From: a virus
Length of the DNA stretch: 32,852 nucleotides
IMG/VR virus record: IMGVR_UViG_3300040801_002347
Span: 1-32,852 of that record
Strand: one strand, 5' to 3'
A program made the position numbers and the translations under genes. How positions within the stretch are numbered: position 1 is the first letter of the stretch; each line of letters opens with the position of its first letter. Below, in pieces: positions 1,135-31,051 of this stretch. The notes below the pieces were generated by a model. That model did not search any database, was not told where the DNA came from, and saw only the letters and a program-made list of their open reading frames with translations.

Positions 1135-1142
1135 TATTTATA
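1135..1142 (-). promoter_or_regulatory. T4-type late promoter TATAAATA
   Basis: Perfect TATAAATA on the minus strand, 28 nt before the ATG at 1107. It overlaps the TAA stop of the 1138-3513 gene, so the partial gene can be transcribed independently. T4 late promoters are read by the phage sigma gp55; use here is inferred. Confidence 0.75.
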
Positions 1143-3513: not shown

Positions 3514-3519
3514 TTTATA

Positions 3520-4548
3520 TTATCCAAATCCGTAAAATTCAACATCATCGCCAGAGTCGGGAATGTTGCCTGTTGTAAATGTTACCACTGATCCTGATAC
3601 CGTATACGCTTTTGTGGCACCTTCGATTTGCTTTAGGCCGTTGACGAAAACCTGCAATGTAGCCTTACCCGCCGTAGCTGTAGCTGGTGTGAAAGATAAA
3701 GTGTACGATGCGCTACCTGTTCCTGTTACAAGCTCGTAGTCGGGTTGTACGGCACCTCCAGCAGTGATCTTATCTAACACCCATTGTTTGGTCGTTAAAG
3801 TTGTTGCTGCGTCCCCATCAACGGTAGCTGTAGCTCTTACCGGTACGTTAAATTGAAATCGTGGAGTACTCTCCTCATAACTGAAAACATTAACACTGTT
3901 CATGCTCATCGAGAAGTTGTTGCTGTTTGGCTCAAATCTGAAATCAGAATCAGAGCCCACGTCTGACATTATCACCTCGCCAGCAGCAACAGAAAGAGAT
4001 GTTCTGTCCACAAATCCAGTATTATAAAATGTTAAATCCATACCAGATGCAGTAAGATTTAAACGGTTTTCTTGCACCAGAGCCCCGGCTTGTTGGGTCT
4101 GTAGTTGTATCAAGCCACCGCCCGATACCAGTATTTTAGCCAGCTTGGTGTCATCATTATCTGTGGAAGTAACTTGGAACTGATCGCCGTCAATTTCAAC
4201 TTCCGTGTCCCTATCTGACGAGCTGTTATATCCTCGCAAAAATACGTCATTGGTATCCGTTTCGATTACCTTCAGTGCTCCACGTTGAACGGTGAACACA
4301 TCATCAGTGAACGTTTTTGCGCCGGCAATCTGCTGTGGTGTTGTTAGGTCAACAAAGTCAGTATTGTCTGGAATATCAAGCACTGTGGCCCACGTGGTGC
4401 CGTTCCAAGTGAACTCTTGATTCATGTCCGTATCATATACTTTGTACCCTTTCTGGGGTGGGGTATATGATGTACGGCTTGCTGTGGTGTGGCGGGGTAA
4501 TCCGAATCCAACACCAATCTCGGCTTCGCCGCGAATTTTGTACGTCAT
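3520..4548 (-). CDS. Fibre/appendage protein, family B (short form)
   Basis: 342 residues. The N-terminal ~55 residues (MTYKIRGEAE...GFGLPRHTT...YTPP...DTD...FTWNG) match the start of the next gene upstream (4673-6778), defining family B. One VDLTT-Q-I-G-KTF fibre motif follows at about residue 66. The C-terminal ~75 residues form a beta-rich domain (YELVTGTGSASYTLSFTP ... LQVFVNGLKQ ... GDDVEFYGFG) of a kind common at the ends of phage virion proteins. The ATG at 4548 is preceded by GAGGAT as ribosome site, a 7-bp hairpin and a TATAAATA promoter, so it begins its own late unit. It probably shares its attachment site with its longer paralogue. Confidence 0.85.
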   Translation of the reverse strand: MTYKIRGEAEIGVGFGLPRHTTASRTSYTPPQKGYKVYDTDMNQEFTWNGTTWATVLDIPDNTDFVDLTTPQQIAGAKTFTDDVFTVQRGALKVIETDTNDVFLRGYNSSSDRDTEVEIDGDQFQVTSTDNDDTKLAKILVSGGGLIQLQTQQAGALVQENRLNLTASGMDLTFYNTGFVDRTSLSVAAGEVIMSDVGSDSDFRFEPNSNNFSMSMNSVNVFSYEESTPRFQFNVPVRATATVDGDAATTLTTKQWVLDKITAGGAVQPDYELVTGTGSASYTLSFTPATATAGKATLQVFVNGLKQIEGATKAYTVSGSVVTFTTGNIPDSGDDVEFYGFG

Positions 4549-4563
4549 AGTTTATCCTCAACA

Positions 4564-4580
4564 GAGAGCAAAATGCTCTC
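4564..4580 (-). promoter_or_regulatory. Leader hairpin just upstream of ribosome site
   Basis: Seven-base-pair stem (GAGAGCA/TGCTCTC) with a 3-nt loop, between the TATAAATA promoter at 4599-4606 and the GAGGAT ribosome site of the 4548 start. It may stabilise the transcript or modulate translation. Function is inferred. Confidence 0.45.
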
Positions 4581-4598
4581 AACAAAACTTCTCTACCG

Positions 4599-4606
4599 TA
4601 TTTATA
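4599..4606 (-). promoter_or_regulatory. T4-type late promoter TATAAATA
   Basis: Perfect TATAAATA in the 124-bp gap between two family B genes, about 50 nt before ATG 4548. The predicted start of transcription falls just before the leader hairpin. Confidence 0.75.
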
Positions 4607-4624
4607 TCTCCTACCCCGAACGCA

Positions 4625-4648
4625 AGAGAGGACCCGGGGGTCCTCTCT
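4625..4648 (-). terminator. Strong 10-bp hairpin after the 4673-6778 gene
   Basis: Perfect inverted repeat AGAGAGGACC / GGTCCTCTCT with loop CGGG, 25 nt beyond the stop at 4673. GC-rich and in the right place for a terminator, but no U-tract follows on the minus strand. It may instead be an mRNA 3'-end stabiliser or processing site. Confidence 0.5.
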
Positions 4649-4672
4649 GCTCATGCTATGGTAGGGTGAAAA

Positions 4673-6778
4673 TTAAGCCTTGGCAATAACAATCGAACCG
4701 TTGAATACTGCGCCAACAGTTTGGATTGTGACGTCGCCAGTGGTTTCGTCGATTACCGTGTCGACAGTGGTGAGTGAAGCAACACCACCAGCAGATTCAT
4801 AAACCTGAACCATGAACACATCACCTGCAGTATATGCAATACCGTGTGTGAGAGCAGAAACAAGGAACGTACTTGGAGTTCCGGCAATCCAATCACCTGT
4901 GTTGAACGACGTTTGGTATGAGCTGGCTGCGACGTCTTCAGCAAGTGCAAAAGCCTTGAACGTAGCAATGTCAACAACACCTTCGGTAACGCCATCTTCA
5001 TACGCTTGACCAAAGCTATCCGTAGCTTCGTTCCAGATCATGAATGCATCTGATTCCGTACCACGCTTAATTTCCAAACCAGCTTGGTTAGGAGTTGTTA
5101 CACCAGCGCCTGTTTCACCAACGTTTAGAGCAATGATTGAATCAGCAATATCAGTGTTGGTTGAGTTAACAGTTGTTGTTGTACCTGAAACAACTAGGTT
5201 ACCAGCAACGACAACATCACTTGAAAAGTTAACATCATCATTGAATGTCTTCACACCACCAATGTTTTGAGCAGTTGTTAGATCAACAAATGCGTCATTG
5301 TTTGTTAGCAGGGAAGTAGCATCACCTGGCTGAACGGCCGTATCGGCAAGTGCACCTTGTGCAAAAGTCGCGTATGTAGTTGCAATATCAGTGATATCAG
5401 CAACAACAACACTACGGTTAACCCAATTGGTACCATTGTAAAACAGTGCTTCGCCACTAATTGGTGCGGATGATGTAGTATCAACGTCGGTTAGATCATC
5501 AATAGCCAGTGTTGCACCAGAGGTGATTGCAGCGTCAACATAACTCTTAGTTGTCAACGTGCTATCGACAGAAGCTCCAGTAGTAAGATGTGTGTTTCTG
5601 ACATCAACACCGCCAGAGAATACGATATCATCTCCGTATAGTGCAAGGTTGGTAGCGCCGACGCCTGCGCCCGTATAGTTTAGTTCCAAACGGTCATCGC
5701 CGACTACACCAACAACAGAAACGGAATCACCTGAAAGTGATGTAAATCCGATTTGTGGTGAAAAGCCTTCCAGTACCAATAGTTCCTGTGAACCAGTCGT
5801 AGAAGAAATTTTGACAACATTGCCAGCTGCACTCTTGCTAAATTCAGTTGTTTCGCCAGTAAGTAACGTAAAAGTCTTCTCGCCAGCAATAGTCTGTGCT
5901 GTGGTTAGGTCAACAAATGCGTCATTATTTGTTAGCAGGGAAGTAGCATCACCTGGCTGAACGGCTGTATCAGCAAGTGCGCCTTGTGCAAATGTTCCAT
6001 ATGTAGCCGAGATGTCGGGAATGTCAGCAGCTACAATTGGTGTATCAACCCAATTGGTGCCATCAAATCGCAAGAAGTCACCCGCATCCGCTAATGTGAT
6101 AACTACGTCGTTTAGTTCTCCGAGTGTGTCAATTCCGCCAACCTGAGCGTCAACATATTCCTTAGAAGCTGCACCAGTGGCAGAAGGAACAGCTGGAAGA
6201 CCAGTGATCTCGTTTCCACCCATCGCAAGGTCACCAGTCATTGTATCACCAGCAACGTCTACAAACAGTGAGTCAGCTTCTGTTTCTGTGTAATAACGAT
6301 TGTCGAGTTGACCAGCATCTAGTTCTACTTCTGTGTAGTAGCGAGCATCACCTGTTGCTGTGGTTAGGTAACCAGCATCGTTGGCAAGATCGCTAACGTT
6401 GTCGCCTGGCTGTACAGCTGTATCAGCAGCAGTACCCTGAGCAGCTGTAGCAAAAGTAGCTGCGGAAGCACCAGAATCTGTTAGGTTACCAGCGGCGTCC
6501 AGCCCTGCAAAGTTCCCGGCCGTGGAGCCTGCAACTTTGTCAGTTTTGGCACCAGCTGCACCAGCTACACCGTCCGATTCAACCTTGGAGTAGGATGTTG
6601 TGCCAGCAGCTGCTTGAATCCACGCTGAACCGTCCCATGTGAATACGGCTACAAGATCGGTATCAAATACCTGATAACCAACCGCTGGTGGTGTGTATGC
6701 TGTACGACTTACTGTAGTATGGCGCGGTAAACCAAAACCAACTTCAACTTCCGCATTGCCTCGAATTATATATGTCAT
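4673..6778 (-). CDS. Fibre/appendage protein, family B (long form)
   Basis: 701 residues. It starts with the family B module (MTYIIRGNAEVEVGFGLPRHTT ... FTWDGSAW). Next comes an Ala/Gly/Asp-rich shaft with repeated TFAQGALADTAVQPGDA segments. Two VDLTT-Q-I-G-KTF motifs are about 209 residues apart. A module with IALNVGE and IWNEATD resembles one in the 1138-3513 protein. The C-terminal ~75 residues (YQTSFNTGDWIAGTPSTF ... HGIAYTAGDVFMVQV) match the end of the 6802-8271 protein (YQAAFTQSLWSVGSPRVF ... HGLPLNTLYHVTV), so it is a chimera of family B head and family A tail modules. A strong GAGGAGAC ribosome site precedes ATG 6778. Function as a long host-contact fibre is inferred. Confidence 0.85.
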   Translation of the reverse strand: MTYIIRGNAEVEVGFGLPRHTTVSRTAYTPPAVGYQVFDTDLVAVFTWDGSAWIQAAAGTTSYSKVESDGVAGAAGAKTDKVAGSTAGNFAGLDAAGNLTDSGASAATFATAAQGTAADTAVQPGDNVSDLANDAGYLTTATGDARYYTEVELDAGQLDNRYYTETEADSLFVDVAGDTMTGDLAMGGNEITGLPAVPSATGAASKEYVDAQVGGIDTLGELNDVVITLADAGDFLRFDGTNWVDTPIVAADIPDISATYGTFAQGALADTAVQPGDATSLLTNNDAFVDLTTAQTIAGEKTFTLLTGETTEFSKSAAGNVVKISSTTGSQELLVLEGFSPQIGFTSLSGDSVSVVGVVGDDRLELNYTGAGVGATNLALYGDDIVFSGGVDVRNTHLTTGASVDSTLTTKSYVDAAITSGATLAIDDLTDVDTTSSAPISGEALFYNGTNWVNRSVVVADITDIATTYATFAQGALADTAVQPGDATSLLTNNDAFVDLTTAQNIGGVKTFNDDVNFSSDVVVAGNLVVSGTTTTVNSTNTDIADSIIALNVGETGAGVTTPNQAGLEIKRGTESDAFMIWNEATDSFGQAYEDGVTEGVVDIATFKAFALAEDVAASSYQTSFNTGDWIAGTPSTFLVSALTHGIAYTAGDVFMVQVYESAGGVASLTTVDTVIDETTGDVTIQTVGAVFNGSIVIAKA
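5277..5365. repeat. 89-bp direct repeat copy 1 (pairs with 5904-5992)
   Basis: 89-bp segment matching 5904-5992 with 5 mismatches (about 94% identity), offset 627 bp (209 codons). It encodes the FAQGALADTAVQPGD / SLLTNNDAFVDLTT stretch of one fibre gene. The high DNA identity suggests recent duplication or gene conversion. Confidence 0.85.
5904..5992. repeat. 89-bp direct repeat copy 2 (pairs with 5277-5365)
   Basis: Second copy of the near-identical in-frame repeat. Unequal recombination between the copies would delete or duplicate exactly 209 codons without breaking the frame. Confidence 0.85.
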
Positions 6779-6801
6779 TAATTTGTCTCCTCAGACGTGG
6801 G

Positions 6802-8271
6802 TTATGAAATTCTAATTGTACCAGCGAATGTTGCGCCAGTTGTTTCTATTGTTACAAGACCTGTTGTTGAATCTATTCTTGTTGTTACACCAACATTCGC
6901 CCCTGTTGAAGCATCTCTTACCGTAACATGGTATAGTGTATTTAGTGGAAGTCCATGTATGGCTTGAGGAATTGAAAATACCCGGGGAGATCCTACGGAC
7001 CACAAGCTTTGTGTAAAGGCTGCCTGATACCCAACAGCCAAATTGGTGTTGTTGTCAACGTAATCTTTTGTCACTAACGTATCACCACTATCACCTGCAT
7101 CTGTGGAAGGTGATGTCAATTTACCGGTAAGCGAATCACCTGCTTTCAACACTCGGCCGTTTATATCTGATATCAGATTGGGCAAGTCAATGGTGTTTAA
7201 TTGAGCGATGGCAGTGGCGTTAATGGATGTGTTTGTGGTGTTTTGTTGAATGGCAGCCGCTTGGGCTGGAGTTATTCCACCCGAGTTACTTCCAACCACA
7301 TTTATGGTAATAAAGATTTTCGGACTAAAGAATATGTCTCTACGTCCCAACACGATGCCAACTGGACTTGCTGACGCGAACGTATTCGCAAGGGACAGCT
7401 GGCCACCAGCGTCTATATACACTGGATCGTTGGCGTTAGCTCCTGCTGCGATCCAATCCCAACTTTCGTTTGTTATAATACCCTCTGTAATAAAATTGAC
7501 AACTTCATTGGTCGTTGCGTCTTCTTCGATTATACCAAAAATGCGCTTGCCCTCAAAAGCTGGGTTGGCTGGCGATACGCTATTAAAATCATCATACTGA
7601 ACACATTGGTAGGCAGCGATTGGTGATTGAGCCTTGCCGGTAATAAACGTGTTGTTTATTTTGTGTGACCCTGATGTGGGGACGCCCGTTACAAAACTAT
7701 CTTCAGTTGTAAAAAATTTGTTGGTGTTGGTGTTTCGGAGTGGTTTTTTGTTCTTACCGTACACCAACGATCCGACTCTACGCTTGCTAGTCAGTCCCGT
7801 CTGGGCTCCAGTATAAGTTGGTGAATCTATAGACATAGACTGGAACGACGTCCCGCCTACCACCTTGGCAGCGAATACTCGGACGACTTCAACGAATCGT
7901 GAACCGTTCCATACGAACCAGGTATTCTTTTGTGAGTTATACCACATCTGACCTGTTGCGGGATTTGGTGGCCGCGCAGCTGACTCAATAGGCTCAAGAG
8001 TTGTGAGTCCCCGAGACAATTCACCTGAATCCAGTGCCAGATCCCAATACAACCACGTGGTTAAACCGGTTGCAACTGGACCCCATGCCTGGCTGACTGA
8101 AACATGTTCGGTGTATAGGTAATCGCTATCATCATGGACAAATGAAATTATTGTTGGGTCTGGAGACACAACCAAATCAACATAATTGCCTACCTTATTC
8201 AAAAATACCGGATTTCCAGCTGTGTCTGTTTGGTGACGAACTATGCCCTGTCGGAACGATATCTTAGCCAT
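6802..8271 (-). CDS. Fibre/appendage protein, family A (489 aa)
   Basis: 489 residues. The N-terminal module MAKISFRQGIVRHQTD ... TTWLYWDLALDSG ... LEPIE is shared with the genes at 1-1107 and 8271-10940. Residues ~105-270 (GQMWYNSQ, RVFAAKV, FGIIEEDA, NFITEG) match the 1-1107 protein. A central DSLTGKLTSPS...TLVTKDYVD segment is a standard fibre linker. The C-terminal ~75 residues match the end of the 4673-6778 protein. The ATG at 8271 overlaps the stop of the upstream gene by one base (TAATG), so translation is probably coupled. Confidence 0.85.
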   Translation of the reverse strand: MAKISFRQGIVRHQTDTAGNPVFLNKVGNYVDLVVSPDPTIISFVHDDSDYLYTEHVSVSQAWGPVATGLTTWLYWDLALDSGELSRGLTTLEPIESAARPPNPATGQMWYNSQKNTWFVWNGSRFVEVVRVFAAKVVGGTSFQSMSIDSPTYTGAQTGLTSKRRVGSLVYGKNKKPLRNTNTNKFFTTEDSFVTGVPTSGSHKINNTFITGKAQSPIAAYQCVQYDDFNSVSPANPAFEGKRIFGIIEEDATTNEVVNFITEGIITNESWDWIAAGANANDPVYIDAGGQLSLANTFASASPVGIVLGRRDIFFSPKIFITINVVGSNSGGITPAQAAAIQQNTTNTSINATAIAQLNTIDLPNLISDINGRVLKAGDSLTGKLTSPSTDAGDSGDTLVTKDYVDNNTNLAVGYQAAFTQSLWSVGSPRVFSIPQAIHGLPLNTLYHVTVRDASTGANVGVTTRIDSTTGLVTIETTGATFAGTIRIS

Positions 8272-10940
8272 TATACACTCACCTCGTCTTTAAGTTTTAG
8301 TGAGAAAAATAAGTCTGAACTACTATTCATCCCAACGGTTGTTACTTCAATGTAGTCACCAGCAGTGAAAGTTTCGGATGTTGTGTCAAATAGACAAACA
8401 TTTGTTCCGTCCACCACGGTGATTGTGCAGAATGTTGTTAAACCATTCTTTTTTAGTATTAATGTTGCGTCTCCACCTGACGGCGCAATTTGTGATCGCC
8501 CTCTGTGTGATCCTGTTCCTGTGGTTGACTCCGTTGCAACAGAATATGCACTCGTTAACATCACGTTAGTTATTGTTGTCGCGTCAGGTAATACACCAGT
8601 AAAGCTCACAGGGATCTCTCTGTATTTAGTTGTTGGTTGCCACCCATTTGTTGAATCAAACGTCAACATGTCACCATCTGATGGAAGAATGGTGCTTGTA
8701 TCAACATCAGTCAAATCATTTAGCACCGAAACGCCACTAGCGGCGTCAACGTATGATTTTGTGGTTAGGACGTCTGGGTCATCACCAGAAACGGTTAGTG
8801 GCATTTTTATTTTCTTGCGTGCCATTATGACATCTTCTTCACCGACAATACCAGCGCCAACTTGCCACTCAAGAACAGGGGTGAAACCACCAGAACCATC
8901 TTGGTCATTTAAAGACCACTTGCGAACGCCAGTGTTCTGTACATATAAACCAACACGATTCATATCAGTACCTGTCGTTAGTTCAGCAAAGGCGTCGCTG
9001 AGCTCTAAGTTAGTGTGAAACCCACCATTGTGTTTAATAATCAACGTTCCTGATTCCATGTACATATCAAAACCAATAGTGCTGTTATATTCCGAAAACG
9101 TTAACTTCGGAGCACCAGTGTTTCCAGCTCTGAAGATATCCACAACTTCTGTGAATGTTTTATTACCAGCGATTTCTTGGTCTGTTGTTAGGTCAACAAA
9201 AGAACCACTAGCAGAATTGTTGTCAACATATTGTTTTGTTGCTATTCCCAACAAGTCGGTTGGATCAGCTGACATTAATACAGGGCCTGTGAATGTACCG
9301 CCCGCTTTTGATACGGAATATGTGTCAACGTACTGCTTGGTAGCAGCTTCCAGAGGGGCTGATGGTGCACCAGACAATACCAACGGACCCGTGAAAGTTG
9401 CTCCTGTGGTTGATACTGAAGTTTGTTCTATTTGTCCAATAGCTGTTTGTACGTTCGTTGCGGTTAGAGCCCCTGTTGGAACAAATAACACTTCACCTGC
9501 TGCATGAGTGTGAAATGCCGAGGCATACGGTCCACCGACAAGGCGAGGATCGTTATCACCCACAACTATTGGAATTGCCGAATTTAACGCTGGTGTTGAC
9601 AACACAACCGCTCCCAATGCAGATGGTGTGGCTGCTGGAAGATTGGTTATAGATCCTGTTGGTCCTTTTGGTCCAACTCCACCCAAACCTTGCTCAAACA
9701 AAATACCCGTTCGTGATAATACACGAGCGACGGGTGGTTTTGAGGTCGGATACAATACAGTATTCGTTACGTGTGGATCTACAGATGTTAGTGTACCATT
9801 ATCAACCCACATTGCAGTTCCAACTGGCAGTGCTGAAAAATCCCAATCATCATTGTAAACTACACCTTGCGGAACAACCGTACCTACTGCGTTTAATACC
9901 AACGATTCCGTAAGAACGGCACATATTGTAGATTGGGCGTCATTGTATTGTGCTGTTCGAATTTCACCTTCACCTGAAAATGCAACGATGGTGTGAGCAG
10001 CCATGGCTACTTCGGTCGATTTAGCTCTAATGACATTTGCTTCAAGCCTGATGGCTGACGACGTTCCTGCATCGATGAAGAATTGGTCCTCAGTGGTGAA
10101 ACAAGTATTATCATCTTTGCGTACAACCTTTCCGCTAGTGAGGTATACGACTCGGCCTGCCAGCACAGATGACGTGTTACCGATCTGTGTTCCTGTGTAT
10201 GCGGGAGCACTTGCTGACACACTTGACAATAATCCATTATTTAAACGGGCGGCAAATACATAATATACCTTCTTCCACGCTGCTCCAACATATTCAAACA
10301 TCTCATTACGAGTTGTGTCAAACCAAACTTGACCAACTCGCAAACCACTAGATTTGTTAGCTGCACCGACGGTAATAGAGAATGCTGAACCGTTGCCTGT
10401 TGTACTTGTCTGTGATAACAACTGTCCGGTGGTAACAACTGTACTACCACGCTCCAATACTTCAAAATCCGTAACATCACCACTTGAGTCAACAGCTGTA
10501 ACAACTATTTGGGCATTGTTTGATAGAGTTATGGTGTCGCCTGCAGCATAAAAGTTTGGCCCTACACCATCACCTCCTGTAAATGTTCCATTGTTTCCAG
10601 AGCCATTATAATCATTTTGCGTTTGTGATGTTCGCAATAATATGGCGTTAGGTTCCGTCGGTTGAACAATAGGTTCAAGGTCCGTATATCCGAACGATCT
10701 TGTAAAGTTTGTTGTGTCGAAATTCCAGTAAAGCCAATAACTAACACCACTGGCGAAAGGTCCGATCCATGCATTAGCAACATTTAAATCTTCGGTGAAG
10801 AGGTAGTTGCTAGATTTATCCGCAACAGCGAGTGTTACAGGTCGGGTGGTGGCTACTATGGATACGTTGCCGAGGCCATTGAAATTGAGAAAACCGCTCG
10901 CCTGGTGGCTGACAATGCCTTGTCTAAATTGAATCCGCAC
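8271..10940 (-). CDS. Large fibre/appendage protein, family A (889 aa), GTG start
   Basis: 889 residues, longest product in the window. The start is GTG at 10940: an in-frame TAG lies directly before it and the protein aligns with its paralogues from the FRQGIV motif onward. GGGAG about 10 nt upstream is the ribosome site. Domains in order: family A head (1 to ~100); a ~100-residue insert (GNNGTFTGGDG...TGNGSAFSITVG) absent from the shorter paralogues; the shared VWFDT/YVFAARL region; a Gly-rich VGPKGPTG patch; TKQYVD linkers with TFTGP repeats; one VDLTT-Q-I-G-KTF motif near residue 605; and a beta-rich C-terminus. Probable long tail fibre or adhesin; specificity cannot be read from the sequence. 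Confidence 0.85.
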   Translation of the reverse strand: MRIQFRQGIVSHQASGFLNFNGLGNVSIVATTRPVTLAVADKSSNYLFTEDLNVANAWIGPFASGVSYWLYWNFDTTNFTRSFGYTDLEPIVQPTEPNAILLRTSQTQNDYNGSGNNGTFTGGDGVGPNFYAAGDTITLSNNAQIVVTAVDSSGDVTDFEVLERGSTVVTTGQLLSQTSTTGNGSAFSITVGAANKSSGLRVGQVWFDTTRNEMFEYVGAAWKKVYYVFAARLNNGLLSSVSASAPAYTGTQIGNTSSVLAGRVVYLTSGKVVRKDDNTCFTTEDQFFIDAGTSSAIRLEANVIRAKSTEVAMAAHTIVAFSGEGEIRTAQYNDAQSTICAVLTESLVLNAVGTVVPQGVVYNDDWDFSALPVGTAMWVDNGTLTSVDPHVTNTVLYPTSKPPVARVLSRTGILFEQGLGGVGPKGPTGSITNLPAATPSALGAVVLSTPALNSAIPIVVGDNDPRLVGGPYASAFHTHAAGEVLFVPTGALTATNVQTAIGQIEQTSVSTTGATFTGPLVLSGAPSAPLEAATKQYVDTYSVSKAGGTFTGPVLMSADPTDLLGIATKQYVDNNSASGSFVDLTTDQEIAGNKTFTEVVDIFRAGNTGAPKLTFSEYNSTIGFDMYMESGTLIIKHNGGFHTNLELSDAFAELTTGTDMNRVGLYVQNTGVRKWSLNDQDGSGGFTPVLEWQVGAGIVGEEDVIMARKKIKMPLTVSGDDPDVLTTKSYVDAASGVSVLNDLTDVDTSTILPSDGDMLTFDSTNGWQPTTKYREIPVSFTGVLPDATTITNVMLTSAYSVATESTTGTGSHRGRSQIAPSGGDATLILKKNGLTTFCTITVVDGTNVCLFDTTSETFTAGDYIEVTTVGMNSSSDLFFSLKLKDEVSV

Positions 10941-23502: not shown

Positions 23503-24651
23503 TTATCGGAGGTTCTGTTGACGAACAATGATCTCATCAAACTCACCGAACTGTGGCTGCTGCAGCTGTGAGTATTGTCTTTCAACAATATCACGATGTA
23601 AAGTCTTATCAGTCCGTGTTTGTTGACGATCGATGACCGTTTGCAGTGGCGTTGGAGCAACTACTGCAACACAGTGGTATCCATTGCGGCGGGCTTGGTC
23701 CAAGAAGAATCGACGACGCTTTGCTGACAGGTTGATGTTGTCAACGTAGATATCCTGCTTGGTGGCAGCCATGTCAGTGAATACTTTGTTCACACGATTG
23801 CCAAACCCTTTATCATCACATGATGCCTTGAACGCTTCACTGTAGTCATCTGTGCCGTAGAATTCCAAACGCAGATTGTCCCACGAGTAGTGAAGCACGT
23901 CATGTCCGACTTCTTCCTTGATCGTTGACAAGAATGTTGACTTACCAGTTCCTGAAACTCCGATTGCCACGTACAACGTAGGCGCTTCGGTGTCGTGGAT
24001 GTGCTGAGGCAGGTGATCTGTATCTTCCCACACATCCATTGGAACCTGGTGGACCATCTCATTGAACTCAGCGATCCACGACTCAACCTGAGCTTGGTTC
24101 TCAGCTTGTGTATCACCAATGCGACCCCAGTTGTCAGCTTTCAACATCCGAGTGAACGGAGTTAGACCACAAACATTCACAGCCGTTAGGAACAGGTTGC
24201 GGCGTTTGTCAGCGTGTTTCAGTCCCCATGGACGATGATGTTCAATCATCCAGCTGACACGAAAGATGTCGTCAACTTCAAGACCAAGAACGGGTGATAC
24301 TGTAGACCAGTTTGTAGCTACCCAATCTTCCCACAACCGTGCTGAAGCGATTTCATGCCCTGAGAATGAGAAGTATTGACCACGCTGCTCGCTGAACTTT
24401 TCCTGACGAGCTACAGGCTTGCCAGTATCATGGAAAGCGCAAGCAATAGCGCCAAGCAGGTCTGCCTTCGACCACATACCTCCACAGCGTGACAAATATT
24501 CACCAACGACCATGTTTGTATGGACGCCGACGTTCTTTTCTCGATGCCACTTTGAACCCTCAACGCATTGGTTCATAGCCTCAAACAACGGCGTTTGGGT
24601 GAACACGTTGAAGTACCACGCGACGAAGGATTGATTTGTGTTAGTTGTCAT
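23503..24651 (-). CDS. HD-Pnk-type end-healing enzyme
   Basis: 382 residues with two domains. The N-terminal half is an HD phosphohydrolase: H44, the H74-D75 pair in FHDTGKP, H99 in SGHE, H138-H139 and D173 in KADNWGR. The C-terminal half is a P-loop 5'-OH polynucleotide kinase: GVSGTGKST at 231-239, SWDN at 256-259, the DNIN motif at 304-307 and a lid with RQQTR near 342. This order matches the HD-Pnk family characterised by Shuman's group (Runella), where HD removes 2',3'-cyclic or 3' phosphates and the kinase phosphorylates 5'-OH ends. T4 Pnkp does the same job with a different phosphatase at the other end. Likely role: repair of tRNA or DNA cut by host nucleases. A sigma70-like promoter ends just before the ATG and no ribosome site is visible. 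Confidence 0.85.
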   Translation of the reverse strand: MTTNTNQSFVAWYFNVFTQTPLFEAMNQCVEGSKWHREKNVGVHTNMVVGEYLSRCGGMWSKADLLGAIACAFHDTGKPVARQEKFSEQRGQYFSFSGHEIASARLWEDWVATNWSTVSPVLGLEVDDIFRVSWMIEHHRPWGLKHADKRRNLFLTAVNVCGLTPFTRMLKADNWGRIGDTQAENQAQVESWIAEFNEMVHQVPMDVWEDTDHLPQHIHDTEAPTLYVAIGVSGTGKSTFLSTIKEEVGHDVLHYSWDNLRLEFYGTDDYSEAFKASCDDKGFGNRVNKVFTDMAATKQDIYVDNINLSAKRRRFFLDQARRNGYHCVAVVAPTPLQTVIDRQQTRTDKTLHRDIVERQYSQLQQPQFGEFDEIIVRQQNLR

Positions 24652-24786: not shown

Positions 24787-25233
24787 TTATTCAGTGTGTT
24801 CAGTGTCAACAACCAACGAAACCCTGATGTTTTTGTTATATGGGTATGTTTCAAAAATTTTGTACTGATCCATAGGTTTCACCACATACCCCAGGGCGCC
24901 ATATTCTTCGGCGACCTCCATGTCGTTCTCTTCGTCTGAACCTGTTAGCATTAGTGTAGGAATTTTTGATAGTTCAGGATCTGCTTGCATCACAGCGAGG
25001 ACTTCTGTGCCCTTCATCATCGGTAGATGTAGATCCATGTAAATAAGATCAGGTGTCGGCGCATCCTCAAAGCCATTGCGCTTATATAAGAAGTCCAGCG
25101 CCAGATCGCCCCGTCCAACGTTATATAACTTGTTTGTGATACGAGCCCGCTTGAATATAAGCTTCACAAACTGGAACGATAGTATGTCATCTTCCACAAT
25201 AAGGATTACCGCTTCCCTGGTGTTGTTTGTCAC
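24787..25233 (-). CDS. Single-domain response regulator receiver (Rcp1/CheY-like)
   Basis: 148 residues, one receiver domain. All catalytic positions are present: acidic E14-D15-D16 in ILIVEDD, phospho-acceptor D67 in IYMDLHLP, T97 in LTGS and K119 in VVKPMD. The spacing and the segments ALDFLYKRN...PDLIYMDLHLPMMKGTEVL...DPELSKIPTLMLTGS are those of Rcp1-like stand-alone regulators, which accept phosphate from a histidine kinase and have no output domain. The GTG start overlaps the stop of the upstream membrane-protein gene (GTGA), so the two are coupled. A receiver gene amid virion genes is unusual. It may drain or redirect a host phosphorelay; that is inference. No kinase is encoded in the window. 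Confidence 0.9.
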   Translation of the reverse strand: MTNNTREAVILIVEDDILSFQFVKLIFKRARITNKLYNVGRGDLALDFLYKRNGFEDAPTPDLIYMDLHLPMMKGTEVLAVMQADPELSKIPTLMLTGSDEENDMEVAEEYGALGYVVKPMDQYKIFETYPYNKNIRVSLVVDTEHTE

Positions 25234-25500: not shown

Positions 25501-26601
25501 TTAAAATACTATCGGGTCGTAGTCGTAGTCGTTGTGGTTACCATCCCCTTCATCAAAGTCGTCCCAGTTGTTGGCTGCAATCTCGGTGCCTGCACTGGAG
25601 TATAGCTTATCGAACGCATCCTGATCAAATTGAGATATTTCACTCAACAACCGTATAATAATCAGCACAGCGGAAATGCTATCATCTGTTGAACCTGTCT
25701 GTGCGTTGTAAGAACCTCTTGACCTAGCATAGGCCTTTAGCTCCGCCAACAATACGTTTGATTTGATTGTGAGTGTTCGCTTTTCTAACATCTCTTTCAG
25801 ATTGACACAGGCCTTCATTTTGGACTTATTAGTGGTCGTTAACCCACGACGCTTGGCACCTTCCTCGGAAACAAACTCTGAATTCACCGGTGGTTCTTCA
25901 TCTGCTTCATACAGGGAGATGACACCTTCACCAACACCGTTGTTCTCCACAGAGAAGTATACGACTGTTTCCATGCGCTCCAAATAAGTCAACAGTCCCT
26001 TTAGAACACCGTACAACCCATTCGTGGACATCGTATTCTTCCGCCACTCAGCTACTTGTACTAAAGAAGGAAACTCGAACACGGTGATGACACTGTAATC
26101 TTCACCTGATCCTGTCGATGGGTCAACACCAACCAGGTACGTTTTGCCACGCTCTATAGTTTGCCAAAATATAACACCATGGTTGGTGGCAACGGGTGTT
26201 ATTGATGCCATCTCCATCGTCAGGTCAGCGAGGAACTTGGAGTCAATCAATAGAGCATCTGATGTTAAGAATTGACAATTGTGGTGTAACACACCATTGC
26301 TATAGTAGTGGTGTGTTTCAGACTCTATTATGTCATATGTTTGATGAGCTCCCAACCTTGTTATGTTGGTGACAACCATATTAGGTTTTAGTCCGAGAAC
26401 CTCCGTACCGATCGAAAGCTCACATACCTCTATTGGTCGACCATCAGGTGTAAAAACTCTATGGTGTCTGGATGCTTGAATCACCGATTTATCGGAAAAT
26501 TCAATCTCAAAACACACCTTTTTGCCCATTTCAGCAACGCCCTGAAAATTGACGTAACCGCTAGATGTTTTTATCTTAAATCTGTTATTATTATATTTCA
26601 T
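25501..26601 (-). CDS. terL: Large terminase gp17, nuclease half with split-intein C fragment
   Basis: 366 residues from ATG 26601, which shares its A with the TGA of the endonuclease gene (TGATG). A GTG four codons earlier is possible. Residues 1-108 are an intein C fragment: block B-like IQASRHHRVFT, block F-like TYDIIESETHHYYSNG, and the end HHN before Cys109. From C109 (CQFLTSD) the protein is the C-terminal part of T4-type terminase with an RNase-H-like nuclease: D160 in GVDPS, E219 in SVENNG, D306/D307 in STDDS. The product must be joined in trans to the 27995-28915 product to give a ~528-residue terminase, which cuts and packages concatemeric DNA at the portal. The acidic tail (DDFDEGDGNHNDYDYD) is unusual but plausible. 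Confidence 0.9.
   Translation of the reverse strand: MKYNNNRFKIKTSSGYVNFQGVAEMGKKVCFEIEFSDKSVIQASRHHRVFTPDGRPIEVCELSIGTEVLGLKPNMVVTNITRLGAHQTYDIIESETHHYYSNGVLHHNCQFLTSDALLIDSKFLADLTMEMASITPVATNHGVIFWQTIERGKTYLVGVDPSTGSGEDYSVITVFEFPSLVQVAEWRKNTMSTNGLYGVLKGLLTYLERMETVVYFSVENNGVGEGVISLYEADEEPPVNSEFVSEEGAKRRGLTTTNKSKMKACVNLKEMLEKRTLTIKSNVLLAELKAYARSRGSYNAQTGSTDDSISAVLIIIRLLSEISQFDQDAFDKLYSSAGTEIAANNWDDFDEGDGNHNDYDYDPIVF
26278..26601 (-). other. Split intein C fragment (IntC, 108 residues)
   Basis: Encodes residues 1-108 of the nuclease-half product, from the ATG to Asn before the +1 Cys. It contains intein block B (S44-x-x-H47), block F, and the terminal His-Asn of block G. It carries most of the intein fold, because the split lies between blocks A and B. 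Confidence 0.85.
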
Positions 26602-28022
26602 CACAACATCCACTCAAATACATCATTTCCGCAGTTCCATAACCGGTCGTAACCGTTATTAACCATGTTTTCCCATTCTGTTTTCGTATCATCAAATGAA
26701 CTCAACTTTGTTGGAAGTTTGTGTTTTTGAAATTTATTCCTTGATTCTAATTTCAACGGATTGTTTGTTTGAAAATATTGATATCCTGGTGCTGATCTGT
26801 GTTTATAATTAAACCCCATATGGATATAAGCATTTCCTGTATTCCAACCGACATCACTGTAAGTTATTATTGATGATGGTGATTGGTCACTAACAAATCT
26901 CTTGAATAGCTTGGATGCGCCACCTATAACATTTGTGTTCAGCTTGTTAGCAAATCTTATCAATTCCCACTCGTGCTGTTTGCTGAATCTACTCTTACCA
27001 AACGACATCATTGATACAATCTCTTTGTTGTATATTAGTGCATAAGCAACACTTGCTGGACAATACCCTTGTATGTGCGAGAGGTTAAAAAATTCTGCTT
27101 GCGTTTTTGAACCAACTTGTGTTATTGTTGTTTGTCGACCGTATATTCTTTCGTTGAATCCCAAAAACGAACTCAGTCTTGATTTGACTATATCTTTTTT
27201 TGATACCCATTCTAACTCATTTATGTGAATTAACCTAAAACCGTTGGCATTAGCGGCATTCGTTTTTGATATGTGATATTGTTTATCGCGTCCCCTCAAT
27301 TCACCGTGCCAGTAAATTCCGTTATATTCTATGGCAAGATTGTTCGTTGGTAGTACGATATCCAACTCCATGGGTGCTATCGTCTTTCTATCATTCGACA
27401 ACACTTCAGCGGTTGTCAATGTTTTGATGTAATCGACAAGTTCTCTGTGTCCCTGTGATGTTGCAAATGCTCGTATGGTGATGTCATGTCGGTGGAGCCA
27501 ATTAGTCGCTGTCGTTATTCCAACATCCAAAATGGAAGCAATCTCGACGGCTGTTTTCTCTTCATCAACGTGCTTTGTTGTCATCCAGTTTTTGTCTTGA
27601 AGCAACGACAAACTTTCAGGATTAACTTGTTGCTGCAACCTGTGTTGAACGCCATATTTTTTAAAATAGTTTAAGTTCTTTCGTTTCTGTATATCATCCT
27701 TTTGGCTCTGTGTTTTTTTGGACATAACAGTTTGAAATTTAACAACTCTTTCTGCTTCTTGTTCTGGAGTTCGTTTGCTTTTACCCTCACTTATCAAGCG
27801 ACCAATACACTTTCGTGAGTTACAAGTTTTCTTATAATTAATTAGTTTGTTATCAAACGCGCACGGTTCGCCACATTCACAAATCGTTGGTGAGGCGATA
27901 TATTTGTCATAGTATTCCTGATACGAAGACAGACCTTGTGCTTTTATGTGTAATAGAAATTTTCCGTTCGATTTGCAGTATTCCACGCCATCAATCAAGG
28001 ATGTTTCGTAACGTCCAGACAT
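26601..28022 (-). CDS. Free-standing Vsr-like homing endonuclease in the terL break
   Basis: 473 residues. Parts in order: Cys cluster (C48, C50, C54, C67, C72) of a possible zinc finger; one KKYGVQHRLQ repeat near 121; a helix-turn-helix-like segment (EIASILDVGITTATNWLHRHDI, ~160-181); a Vsr-like nuclease core with MELDIVL (E219, D221), IEYNGIYWHGE (E232, H239) and HINELEW; and a C-terminal ~170-residue region (FFNLSHIQGY ... RFANKLNTNVIGG ... DTKTEWEN) shared with the 28931-30508 protein. It sits between the two terminase halves, overlapping the first by 28 nt and the second by 1 nt. AGAGGA inside the IntN codons is its ribosome site. Free-standing Vsr-related homing nucleases in genes broken by split inteins are known (Dassa et al., fractured genes). 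It probably spreads the split-intein arrangement into intact terL genes. Confidence 0.85.
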   Translation of the reverse strand: MSGRYETSLIDGVEYCKSNGKFLLHIKAQGLSSYQEYYDKYIASPTICECGEPCAFDNKLINYKKTCNSRKCIGRLISEGKSKRTPEQEAERVVKFQTVMSKKTQSQKDDIQKRKNLNYFKKYGVQHRLQQQVNPESLSLLQDKNWMTTKHVDEEKTAVEIASILDVGITTATNWLHRHDITIRAFATSQGHRELVDYIKTLTTAEVLSNDRKTIAPMELDIVLPTNNLAIEYNGIYWHGELRGRDKQYHISKTNAANANGFRLIHINELEWVSKKDIVKSRLSSFLGFNERIYGRQTTITQVGSKTQAEFFNLSHIQGYCPASVAYALIYNKEIVSMMSFGKSRFSKQHEWELIRFANKLNTNVIGGASKLFKRFVSDQSPSSIITYSDVGWNTGNAYIHMGFNYKHRSAPGYQYFQTNNPLKLESRNKFQKHKLPTKLSSFDDTKTEWENMVNNGYDRLWNCGNDVFEWML

Positions 28023-28915
28023 TTGTACAATTCCTCTATTGTTAGGGTGATTTCTTCACCTGTTGATGTGTCTAACAATTGTACACTATTTATGCCAGTA
28101 AGACACTCGTATTCTTGATCCCACTTTCTCTGTCCCAGCCGTCCTATTTCATCCTGCTTGAATTGCTCATCACGGCCTGGGGGTTCATCCCACGCTACGA
28201 ACTGACTAGCGAAACCGTTAACACCAACCCCTGGGGTATTTTCGTGGGGGATTCTTGCACCTCGCCATAGAGTAGCGAATCTGTCCAAATCACCATTGGG
28301 CGTGGAAGTGATGATACAAGCACCACCTGTTGATAGAGTAGGTGCGATAGATGTCCAGAACTCTTCCTGTACCGAACGCTTTACAAATGCAAATTCATCC
28401 AAGAACACCAATGAGATAGACAAACCACGGCCAGAGTTTTCTGTGGTTGCTTCCGATATTATGCGGGATTCATTATCAAAAGCTATATTGTGTTTGTTCC
28501 AGCCGTCATCTTTAACTCCGGGTTTCATCCACATGGGTAAATTTTCATAAGCATACCGAATGCGAAAGATCATTTCCATGGCGTTAGAGTTTTTATTTGA
28601 TGCAATGAGGATCGTCTTGTCATCGTGGAAGGTAGCAAACCACAACAGAAATGCTGCTGATGTAATGGACTTGCCTGTCTGTCTGGCGGATAACGCTATA
28701 CAATATCGGTTATTTTGGTACATCCGTAACAGGTCTTCCTGAAACGGATATAGGTTAAATTTGATTGCTCCTTTTGTTGGATGTTGTATTTTTACATAAT
28801 GTTTGCAAAAATACACAGGGTCGTGTGCACACTTGTCCAACTCCAAAAGTTGGTCGTACGTAAGCTCAACTTGTATATTGGCTTTTTTTAAATTGGGGTT
28901 GCTTCCACTTGCCAT
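27995..28915 (-). CDS. terL: Large terminase gp17, ATPase half with split-intein N fragment
   Basis: 306 residues. Residues 1-270 are the T4-type terminase ATPase: Walker A SARQTGKS at 76-83, Walker B LVFLDEF at 169-175 and coupling motif TSTPNG at 203-208. After QEYE, Cys271 starts a 36-residue intein N fragment (CLTGINSVQLL ... IEELYKCL, block A), then a stop. No nuclease domain is present, so the protein needs trans-splicing with the 25501-26601 product. It powers DNA translocation into the head with gp16. The start at 28915 lies 15 nt after the stop of the second endonuclease gene. A CATAAATA only 6 nt upstream is too close to serve as its promoter. Confidence 0.9.
   Translation of the reverse strand: MASGSNPNLKKANIQVELTYDQLLELDKCAHDPVYFCKHYVKIQHPTKGAIKFNLYPFQEDLLRMYQNNRYCIALSARQTGKSITSAAFLLWFATFHDDKTILIASNKNSNAMEMIFRIRYAYENLPMWMKPGVKDDGWNKHNIAFDNESRIISEATTENSGRGLSISLVFLDEFAFVKRSVQEEFWTSIAPTLSTGGACIITSTPNGDLDRFATLWRGARIPHENTPGVGVNGFASQFVAWDEPPGRDEQFKQDEIGRLGQRKWDQEYECLTGINSVQLLDTSTGEEITLTIEELYKCLDVTKHP
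27998..28105 (-). other. Split intein N fragment (IntN, 36 residues)
   Basis: Starts at Cys271 of the ATPase-half product: CLTG (block A), a Ser/Thr-rich turn, then ITLTIEELYKCL. Far shorter than the IntN of DnaE-type split inteins and comparable to the ~25-residue IntN of AceL-TerL. The last residues may be read-through of the endonuclease insertion rather than intein. Confidence 0.85.
28087..28094 (-). promoter_or_regulatory. Late-promoter-like CATAAATA inside IntN codons
   Basis: One mismatch from TATAAATA, within codons for Gly-Ile-Asn of IntN and 65 nt before the endonuclease ATG at 28022. It could give the nuclease its own late transcript; it could equally be a chance product of the codons. 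Confidence 0.35.
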
Positions 28916-28930
28916 ATTATTATTTATGGC

Positions 28931-30508
28931 TTACATTTGTCGCTGGTCCAGTTGATATTTGTATTTACCACAATCCCATATTCTCAGCATTCCAGCATTC
29001 TCACAATTTTCACGTTCCGTCTTGGTCTCATCATACTCATCCAACAATCTTTGCAAATGCTTCCGTCTGTACTTAAACTTATGGCTGCGCAGACCGTTTT
29101 TGACATAACTATAATCAGGTGGTAGTGTATCCACTAGTACAAAATTGTTGGTGGTGTATAAATCCCCCGTACTCCACCTTCTATCAGCAAACGTTATTAG
29201 TGGTTTGCTGATATGATGTTTGGCAAAGTGTTTTAGTAACTTACTGAAACCACCAACCACGATTCTAGATGTCGCGTATCGGTTAAGAATGTACCTATCG
29301 TTGTATTCTATTACCCCCATTACTGCTACAACATTATTGTCTCGGTCAACCAAACCATAGTTTATACCACTCGGTCCGTTGCGTTGAATATGGTTGGTGT
29401 TGAAGAATACCGTTTTTGCATGTGTGTCTACCGTAATAACCTTGGTGCGTCTGGCATATATTTTGGGTGTTGTTGCTTTTCCCACCATGTATAATATTTT
29501 ATTATAAATTTGATCAACTGCGTTATTCCACTCATCTTCAAATATTGTTAATAACTGCAGTCCAACAGTCTCGCATTTTTGCATTTTGTTAAAATGTGTC
29601 CACTTGTCTATTCTGTTATGAATATCCGCATGCCAGTACAAACCACACAATTCTATGGCTATGTTGTGCTCTGTTAATATGAAATCAAGTTCCTTTCCGT
29701 TAAGCACACACCTGTCGTTCTGCACGAAGTGTATATTGTGATGTGTTAGAAACTCTGCCAATTCTCGTTCCCACATTGTTGTGGAAAACCTAACAATACT
29801 GATATTATGTTTGTTGCAGTATGAGGCTACGGTAGTGGAGTCTACAGATAATTCTTCAGCAATTTTTGTTATTGTTGTTTGTTTTCTTACGTGCTGGTCG
29901 TATAACCATTCACTGTTTTGCAATTTATTTAAGCTATCTGTTGGTACACTGGCCTGTGAAATGAAATCAACACCATACCGCTCTTTGCAAGTGTTTCGTG
30001 TTTTTGTTCTGTACGCGTCGCTTTGCGTGAATGCTTCTGCCCCATATCGTTCAATGCACGTCGTCTTATATTTTTCCTTTACAATTGTGCTTTGGCGAGG
30101 ATGGTTGGTACCATATTTTCGTTGACTAGTGGCTTTCACCTTCTCCAAGAATTCAGAACTCTCCGTGTAGTGGTTGACGCCATGTGTGTCTAACATTGTT
30201 TGCCGTCGTTGTACTTTTGTATTAATTGAGTTACACTTTGGTCCACAAACGTTGCGATATCTGCTCGTGGTGTTGTCCCATTTGGTGGGCTGGTTACACA
30301 CAACACAGGGGTTGAATTGTCGATGAGTTTTAATATGCCACAACCGTTGTGTGGCTTTAGCACTTGTTGGCAAAAAATCTGTAGCTTCCACCAATTGTTG
30401 GTATAGTGGCTGTTCCCATCGCGTGAAGTTGCTAGTTGGGTTGCTCTGTTTAAATCTCTCAACCAAAAATTGAACTTCATCGGGTATGTTTTCTGGAAAT
30501 GACTTCAT
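28931..30508 (-). CDS. Second Vsr-like homing endonuclease, between terS and terL
   Basis: 525 residues of the same architecture as the 26601-28022 protein. A CxxC...CxxxC cluster (C68, C71, C88, C92) is followed by four ~25-residue repeats with a THGVNHYTE / KYGTNHPRQ / RYGAEAFTQ / RYGVDFISQ core (~105-185). Then come a helix-turn-helix-like segment (IAEELSVDSTTVASYCNKHNI, ~216-236), the Vsr-like core KELDFIL (E273, D275) ... IAIELCGLYWH (E286, H293), and the shared C-terminal region (FFNTNHIQRNGPS ... VVGGFSKLLKHF ... ETKTEREN). It lies in the gap between the small and large terminase genes rather than in a gene. A palindrome at 30522-30533 lies just before its ATG. Confidence 0.8.
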   Translation of the reverse strand: MKSFPENIPDEVQFLVERFKQSNPTSNFTRWEQPLYQQLVEATDFLPTSAKATQRLWHIKTHRQFNPCVVCNQPTKWDNTTSRYRNVCGPKCNSINTKVQRRQTMLDTHGVNHYTESSEFLEKVKATSQRKYGTNHPRQSTIVKEKYKTTCIERYGAEAFTQSDAYRTKTRNTCKERYGVDFISQASVPTDSLNKLQNSEWLYDQHVRKQTTITKIAEELSVDSTTVASYCNKHNISIVRFSTTMWERELAEFLTHHNIHFVQNDRCVLNGKELDFILTEHNIAIELCGLYWHADIHNRIDKWTHFNKMQKCETVGLQLLTIFEDEWNNAVDQIYNKILYMVGKATTPKIYARRTKVITVDTHAKTVFFNTNHIQRNGPSGINYGLVDRDNNVVAVMGVIEYNDRYILNRYATSRIVVGGFSKLLKHFAKHHISKPLITFADRRWSTGDLYTTNNFVLVDTLPPDYSYVKNGLRSHKFKYRRKHLQRLLDEYDETKTERENCENAGMLRIWDCGKYKYQLDQRQM

Positions 30509-30544: not shown

Positions 30545-31051
30545 TTATTGGTCATCAACAACTTTGTTTCGTTCTGCTTCACGTTCGGCACGTAGAGCAC
30601 GAAGGATGTCATTGCGATCACCCACTATCAAGTTGTTGTTTGTGGTTCCACCCGGTTTAGCAGAGGCAGCAACTTTCTTGGCGGCGATTGCCAGCTTCTC
30701 TTTGTTGTTCTTTAGCGTACCTTTATTGGCTGCGGCATTGAGAGCTGTGTTCAAAAATTGGACAGCAATCTCTTGATTTCGGGCTTTGTATTTGCCTTCA
30801 ACCAATTCAGCTTCCTGTGATTGAACACCAAATGCTTCAAGCGCGAGGTCGTATATTTCCTGAAACTGATCATCAATCTCATTATCTTTGTCATCATATG
30901 GGTGATCAACCGAAGTTGATAATTCCGTTGTACGCTTCACAGCAGGTACGGTTTCGCGGTTAACGCCTGGGACGTTGGTTGGTGTGCTGTTGGATTCAAT
31001 GTCAAAAAAATCTTCCAGAGGATGCTCTGTTGTGTTGTTATTGTCTGTCAC
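30545..31051 (-). CDS. terS: Small terminase gp16-like
   Basis: 168 residues, GTG start at 31051 overlapping the gp4 stop (GTGA); GGAG about 10 nt upstream is the ribosome site and no internal Met is available. The centre (DDQFQEIYDLALEAFGVQSQEAELVEGKYKARNQEIAVQFLNTALNAAANKG region, ~58-113) is the helical oligomerisation region of T4-type gp16, which forms a ring that recognises DNA and stimulates gp17. The N-terminus is acidic and disordered, the C-terminus Lys/Arg/Glu-rich. Located directly upstream of the terminase block, separated from it only by the endonuclease gene. The product contacts both viral DNA and gp17. Confidence 0.85.
   Translation of the reverse strand: MTDNNNTTEHPLEDFFDIESNSTPTNVPGVNRETVPAVKRTTELSTSVDHPYDDKDNEIDDQFQEIYDLALEAFGVQSQEAELVEGKYKARNQEIAVQFLNTALNAAANKGTLKNNKEKLAIAAKKVAASAKPGGTTNNNLIVGDRNDILRALRAEREAERNKVVDDQ

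Follow-up and report, generated by a model that had tools for sequence, protein, structure and literature searches.

Fractured genes, reportedly described by Dassa et al. in 2009, are enzyme genes that a split intein breaks in two, the gap between its halves being taken up by a free-standing EDxHD-type homing endonuclease. The AceL NrdHF locus has a fractured-gene layout with an intervening GIY-YIG endonuclease (PMC7891396). In the terminase inteins AceL-TerL and GOS-TerL the split is at S2, after the first intein helix (PMC13014065), and IntN has 25 residues in the former and 37 in the latter (PMC11766414); in Cat, an engineered consensus of these two, it has 30. All three share a terL host, an IntC of about 104 residues (PMC13014065, PMC11766414), Cys or Ser at position 1 (Ser in GOS-TerL) and Cys at position +1. 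VidaL (6VGV), which together with Cat served as the characterised intein for comparison, is split at S1, after the second strand, and its IntN has 16 residues (PMC13014065). Aeromonas phage PX29 (genes 17A/17B), Serratia phage 92A1 and Providencia phage PSTRCR_127 have a broken terL with a short IntN, an IntC on the nuclease half and a GIY-YIG endonuclease in the break. The endonuclease is fused to IntC in PX29, whose GenBank annotation gives N-intein, C-intein and GIY-YIG. In 92A1 and PSTRCR_127 there are three genes, one of them for a free-standing SegE-type GIY-YIG nuclease.

The window analysed here, a linear IMG/VR record of 32,852 bases, contains a terL whose break falls practically at the junction used in these three phages, in which the insertion, as read from the sequences, lies one codon earlier. 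With a probability of about 0.9, the locus is a fractured terL whose atypical S2-split intein would trans-splice to give a whole terminase, with an EDxHD homing endonuclease as the gene in the break. The S2 split of AceL-TerL and GOS-TerL, together with the fractured AceL NrdHF gene, assigns it to a known kind; the arrangement is already known from other phages, and the window holds a genuine and well-formed new case of it. It resembles AceL-TerL, GOS-TerL and Cat in host gene, split position, short IntN (36 residues), IntC length (108 residues) and Cys+1, but it is a natural member from another phage with low identity to them and carries Cys1 where GOS-TerL has Ser1. With the fractured genes it shares the split intein halves and the free-standing EDxHD-type endonuclease between them; it differs from them in the site of the split, S2 in place of the canonical endonuclease position, and in an endonuclease whose model has a GNAT/Mom-like C-terminal domain.

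The terL locus and its relatives

The terL region is read from the minus strand, with the order, in the direction of transcription, of tail tube-like protein, head closure protein, small terminase, an endonuclease (28931-30508), TerL-N, the break endonuclease and TerL-C. The features are as follows.

30545-31051, minus strand: terminase small subunit (PHROG 445, 2.3e-7; synteny, with the same order in the related locus L026)
28931-30508, minus strand: second endonuclease of the same family, diverged, free-standing, 525 aa, 15 nt upstream of terL-N
27995-28915, minus strand: TerL-N, 306 aa, a 270-residue N-extein plus a 36-residue IntN
28106-28915, minus strand: TerL N-extein, the ATPase half, 270 aa, with Walker A ARQTGKS, Walker B LVFLDE and the end KWDQEYE
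27998-28105, minus strand: IntN, 36 residues, CLTGINSVQLLDTSTGEEITLTIEELYKCLDVTKHP, next to the stop TGA at 27995-27997
28032-28037, minus strand: Shine-Dalgarno-like AGAGGA, 9 nt ahead of the endonuclease ATG and within the IntN coding sequence (direct reading)
26601-28022, minus strand: EDxHD (Vsr-like) homing endonuclease, free-standing, 473 aa (PHROG and profile against 3R3P)
25501-26613, minus strand: TerL-C, open reading frame from GTG 26613, IntC plus nuclease half
26278-26601, minus strand: IntC, 108 residues from ATG 26601, ending GVLHHN (Cat match and model)
25504-26277, minus strand: TerL C-extein, the nuclease half, 258 aa, starting CQFL, with the stop at 25501-25503

The initial annotation had described an ATPase half ending in a 36-residue IntN that begins CLTG, a 473-residue endonuclease filling the break and a nuclease half preceded by a 108-residue IntC that ends HHN before Cys+1, and all three are present. 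For IntC the start has to be chosen between GTG 26613, which gives 112 residues, and ATG 26601, which gives 108; the latter fits the start positions of relatives and lies within a TGATG that also contains the stop codon of the endonuclease. The TerL-N and endonuclease frames overlap by 28 nt. This tight packing, with its overlaps, suggests translational coupling across TerL-N, the endonuclease and TerL-C, and the AGAGGA may be the Shine-Dalgarno sequence of the break endonuclease.

Scanning IMG/VR with a pattern made from TerL-C alone gave no match because no close relative is present there, and an alignment of IntC was needed; with it, 197 contigs were recovered and 80 kept. Since the +2 residue is part of the pattern, the scan is biased towards terL. 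Both halves are found at this junction in 64 loci, which form 40 clusters at 95% identity, 33 of them split and seven contiguous. A free-standing ORF lies in the break in 23 of the 33 split clusters, two of which also have members without it, and the loci that lack any break ORF still retain both intein halves. Among the ORFs and fusions at the break are Hef-like/EDxHD, GIY-YIG, DUF559/Vsr-like and HNH types as well as unclassified ones, and some of the natural pairs are Ser1 versions. A closely related intein-free allele showing the empty site at the nucleotide level was not found. A split-intein terL with an ORF in the break is thus not rare but common in phages, commoner than the initial annotation implied, and in PX29 it is already annotated in GenBank.

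Intein halves and the predicted rejoined terminase

The IntC half matches the Cat intein (6DSL) by sequence with an E value of 6.5e-8, and VidaL at 0.005. The intein models of Pfam and NCBIfam gave weak matches, below cut-off, for the window IntC, so that curated models alone would overlook it. When TerL-C was modelled with AlphaFold2 from an alignment with 29 relatives, pLDDT was about 90 across most of IntC and the nuclease domain. In Foldseek the best inteins for the IntC part are Cat and VidaL, the latter being the best HINT fold match (rmsd 1.4 over 102 columns). In TerL-C numbering, with a 112-residue IntC, His51 (block B), Asp94 (block F), Gly107, His111, Asn112 and Cys113 are invariant in 30 TerL-C proteins, and the window keeps every one. 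Block B reads S48-x-x-H51, Ser replacing the usual Thr of T-x-x-H. The class 1 catalytic set of Cys1, block B His, block F Asp, penultimate His, Asn and Cys+1 is present.

IntN consists of 36 residues of non-TerL sequence (CLTG...KHP) after QEYE in TerL-N, with Cys as residue 1; the median length of this tail in relatives is 32. On a profile built from about 40 relatives, the window sequence excluded, it scores 23.5 bits, whereas the best of 5000 shuffles reaches 13.1. A PDB search with IntN alone gave no intein match, and its block A is unusual, with I5-N6 against D/S-T in relatives. IntN contains the segment IEELYKCL, which is aligned with the first intein helix (by alignment, not in a model of IntN). 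The S1 split of VidaL therefore does not fit the window, whose 36-residue IntN includes this first-helix segment. Taken together, the sequence, the structure models and the comparison with some 80 related loci confirm both halves of the AceL-TerL-like intein, the split between blocks A and B, the conserved extein junction and the intervening homing endonuclease, as initially proposed.

The joined exteins form a TerL of 528 aa and 59.4 kDa, somewhat above the initial estimate of about 58 kDa. Alignments to T4 gp17 (E 4.8e-51) and, at 52% identity, to the TerL of Xanthomonas phage XacN1, which is unbroken, run along the length of this product and place the break between the ATPase and nuclease domains. 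The conservation claimed for the QEYE/CQFL junction is confirmed by the intein-free XacN1, which has QEFECMF where the window has QEYECQF, so that the Cys directly after the break is also present there. The N-extein, 60% identical to XacN1 TerL, matches Pfam Terminase_6N (2.4e-12), PHROG TerL (8e-58) and T4 gp17 (3ezk, 3e-37), and its Walker A and Walker B motifs are kept. The C-extein matches Pfam Terminase_6C (3.5e-7), and its model matches the T4 gp17 nuclease (6.8e-12), gp17 being first in Foldseek for the nuclease part. The nuclease residues Asp164, Glu223, Asp310 and Asp311 are invariant across the 30 TerL-C proteins and are all kept in the window. The phage had been called T4-like, a loose label that suits the gp17-type TerL, but the nearest GenBank TerLs come from the jumbo phages XacN1 and CM1/RAS14.

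Proposed trans-splicing and its alternatives

From homology with these systems we infer trans-splicing, DNA cleavage and homing. TerL would be made as two polypeptides, an ATPase half with a C-terminal IntN and a nuclease half with an N-terminal IntC, which would associate so that one folded HINT intein is formed. Trans-splicing would then proceed from a thioester at Cys1 through transfer to Cys+1 and cyclisation of Asn112 to ligation at QEYE|CQFL, and the predicted product is an ordinary 528-residue terminase of the T4 gp17 type. The endonuclease should cut intein-free terL alleles, and repair of the cut allele would copy IntN, endonuclease and IntC together.

The position of the break between the two domains and the frames, which would permit two stable polypeptides, also allow that the TerL halves act as separate subunits without splicing, the intein parts being inert remnants. 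PMC10448857 cites a precedent in a phage ribonucleotide reductase that is split by a homing endonuclease and works as two peptides. Inert remnants should decay, yet the intein catalytic residues are intact at both ends even though IntC is only about 44% identical to its nearest relative, and both halves are kept even in loci without a break ORF; this explanation is therefore considered improbable. Still less probable is that this terL is decayed or non-functional and that an intact copy lies elsewhere in the same genome. The record, at 32.9 kb and linear, is incomplete, but no second terL is present on the whole of it, the Walker motifs and the acidic residues of the nuclease are intact, terS and the head closure gene stand in normal synteny with it, and the terL region has neither a frameshift nor an internal stop.

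Endonucleases often adjoin or interrupt terL. A plain insertion of an endonuclease gene or an intron, with RNA splicing, as reported for terL in phage ICP1 (PMC10448857), or an assembly chimera behind it and the intein likeness incidental, can nevertheless be dismissed almost entirely, as no Rfam match suggesting an intron was found at the locus, the model of the HINT domain is of high confidence and many independent contigs show this structure, which strongly disfavours a chimera.

Endonucleases in and beside the break

The break endonuclease matches PHROG 3339, homing endonuclease, with an E value of 1e-103 and has Hef-like relatives in GenBank; Hef-like phage proteins match it over the whole length. 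A family profile of 12 relatives finds I-Bth0305I (3R3P), a solved EDxHD endonuclease, at 1.7e-8, as expected if the locus is a fractured gene of the kind initially proposed, whereas the single sequence reaches 3R3P at 0.33 only. The likeness to 3R3P, which is named a mobile intron protein, concerns the catalytic nuclease domain only. D221, E232, H239 and K253, a set defined by conservation alone, are invariant among the relatives. The endonuclease model has a pLDDT of 84, with a GNAT fold in its C-terminal half (about residues 295-473) whose best PDB match is Mom of phage Mu (E 3e-5); the viral matches likewise contain a Mom protein. The G+C content is 0.36-0.39 in the endonuclease against about 0.44 in terL, which is consistent with a separate acquisition.

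The upstream endonuclease (PHROG 3e-109, DUF7487 3e-17) shares about 40% identity with the endonucleases that occupy the break in L014 and L026, the nearest TerL relatives, and is closer to them than is the window's own break endonuclease. A sister relationship of the window break endonuclease to those of L014 and L026 is rejected (p-AU 0.011), while a clade of the upstream endonuclease with these two has a p-AU of 0.33. L026 has the same gene order as the window but without the upstream endonuclease. Some loci that are otherwise almost identical differ only in having an endonuclease. L055 has a 246-aa ORF in the break that L064 lacks, although their flanks are 90-96% identical and they have about 10 nt in common at the breakpoint; L088 and L091 are another such pair. 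In a comparison of the IntC tree with endonuclease type (112 columns), support is too weak to date the split.

These comparisons raise the prospect, for which we see an even chance, that phage terL has in its A/B break a docking site that is inherited. The split intein would be handed down by descent. Endonucleases from several superfamilies (EDxHD/Vsr-like, GIY-YIG, HNH, DUF559) would meanwhile come, go and take one another's place in it, the gene never being re-fused. The window's counterpart of its relatives' break endonuclease may then adjoin terL upstream, with another lineage in the break.

With the window, a class that is used in protein labelling because of its short IntN gains a complete natural S2-split pair together with the endonuclease, and the comparison supplies dozens more natural split-intein pairs. 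The turnover of endonucleases in the break is of more interest than the arrangement itself, and with natural loci that have or lack the endonuclease, the order of events, whether the split or the endonuclease came first, becomes testable.

The break endonuclease and neighbouring genes

The break between the two terL halves holds a Hef-like enzyme, a member of the EDxHD/Vsr-like phage homing endonuclease family (26601-28022, minus strand). In its structural model, residues ~295-473 adopt a GNAT fold, and the best PDB match of this C-terminal half is Mom of phage Mu. The model is consistent with a possible fusion of a nuclease with a DNA-modification-like domain. Other genes lie beside the terminase:

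28931-30508, minus strand, a further member of this endonuclease family, 15 nt upstream of terL-N
24787-25233, minus strand, response-regulator receiver protein, adjoining the terminase genes
23503-24651, minus strand, protein with HD-like and polynucleotide kinase-like AAA regions, adjoining the terminase genes

The nearest relatives of the upstream endonuclease include the break endonucleases of L014 and L026, the loci with the closest TerL relatives; L026 carries no upstream endonuclease at the matching position. Elsewhere, several large tail/fibre genes (1138-10940, minus strand) have repeated motifs in common, for example FVDLTTNQTIGGTKTF, the sequences suggesting repeated modules or duplication.

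Inteins of related terL loci

In the related loci of the IMG/VR scan, terL consists of at least three ORFs in L015, L023, L035, L043, L052, L067 and L091. Inteins occupy two or three positions in these genes: close to Walker A, close to Walker B and at the domain junction. In L035, L043, L057, L060 and L067, IntN begins with Ser rather than Cys, as in GOS-TerL, and Cys+1 is present.

Break contents of related terL loci

ORFs of ~240-370 aa occupy the break of L042, L047, L055, L062, L070, L072 and L073. Those scanned (L042, L047, L055, L070 and L072) gave no clear family match; all seven are possibly unrecognised endonucleases. The terL loci of L055 and L064 are almost identical, one with and one without an endonuclease ORF in the break; the almost identical L088 and L091 differ likewise. 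The breakpoint has ~10 nt in common in both pairs. In L021/L022, the sole break content is a 72-residue Hef-like remnant (4692-4910), apparently a decayed endonuclease.
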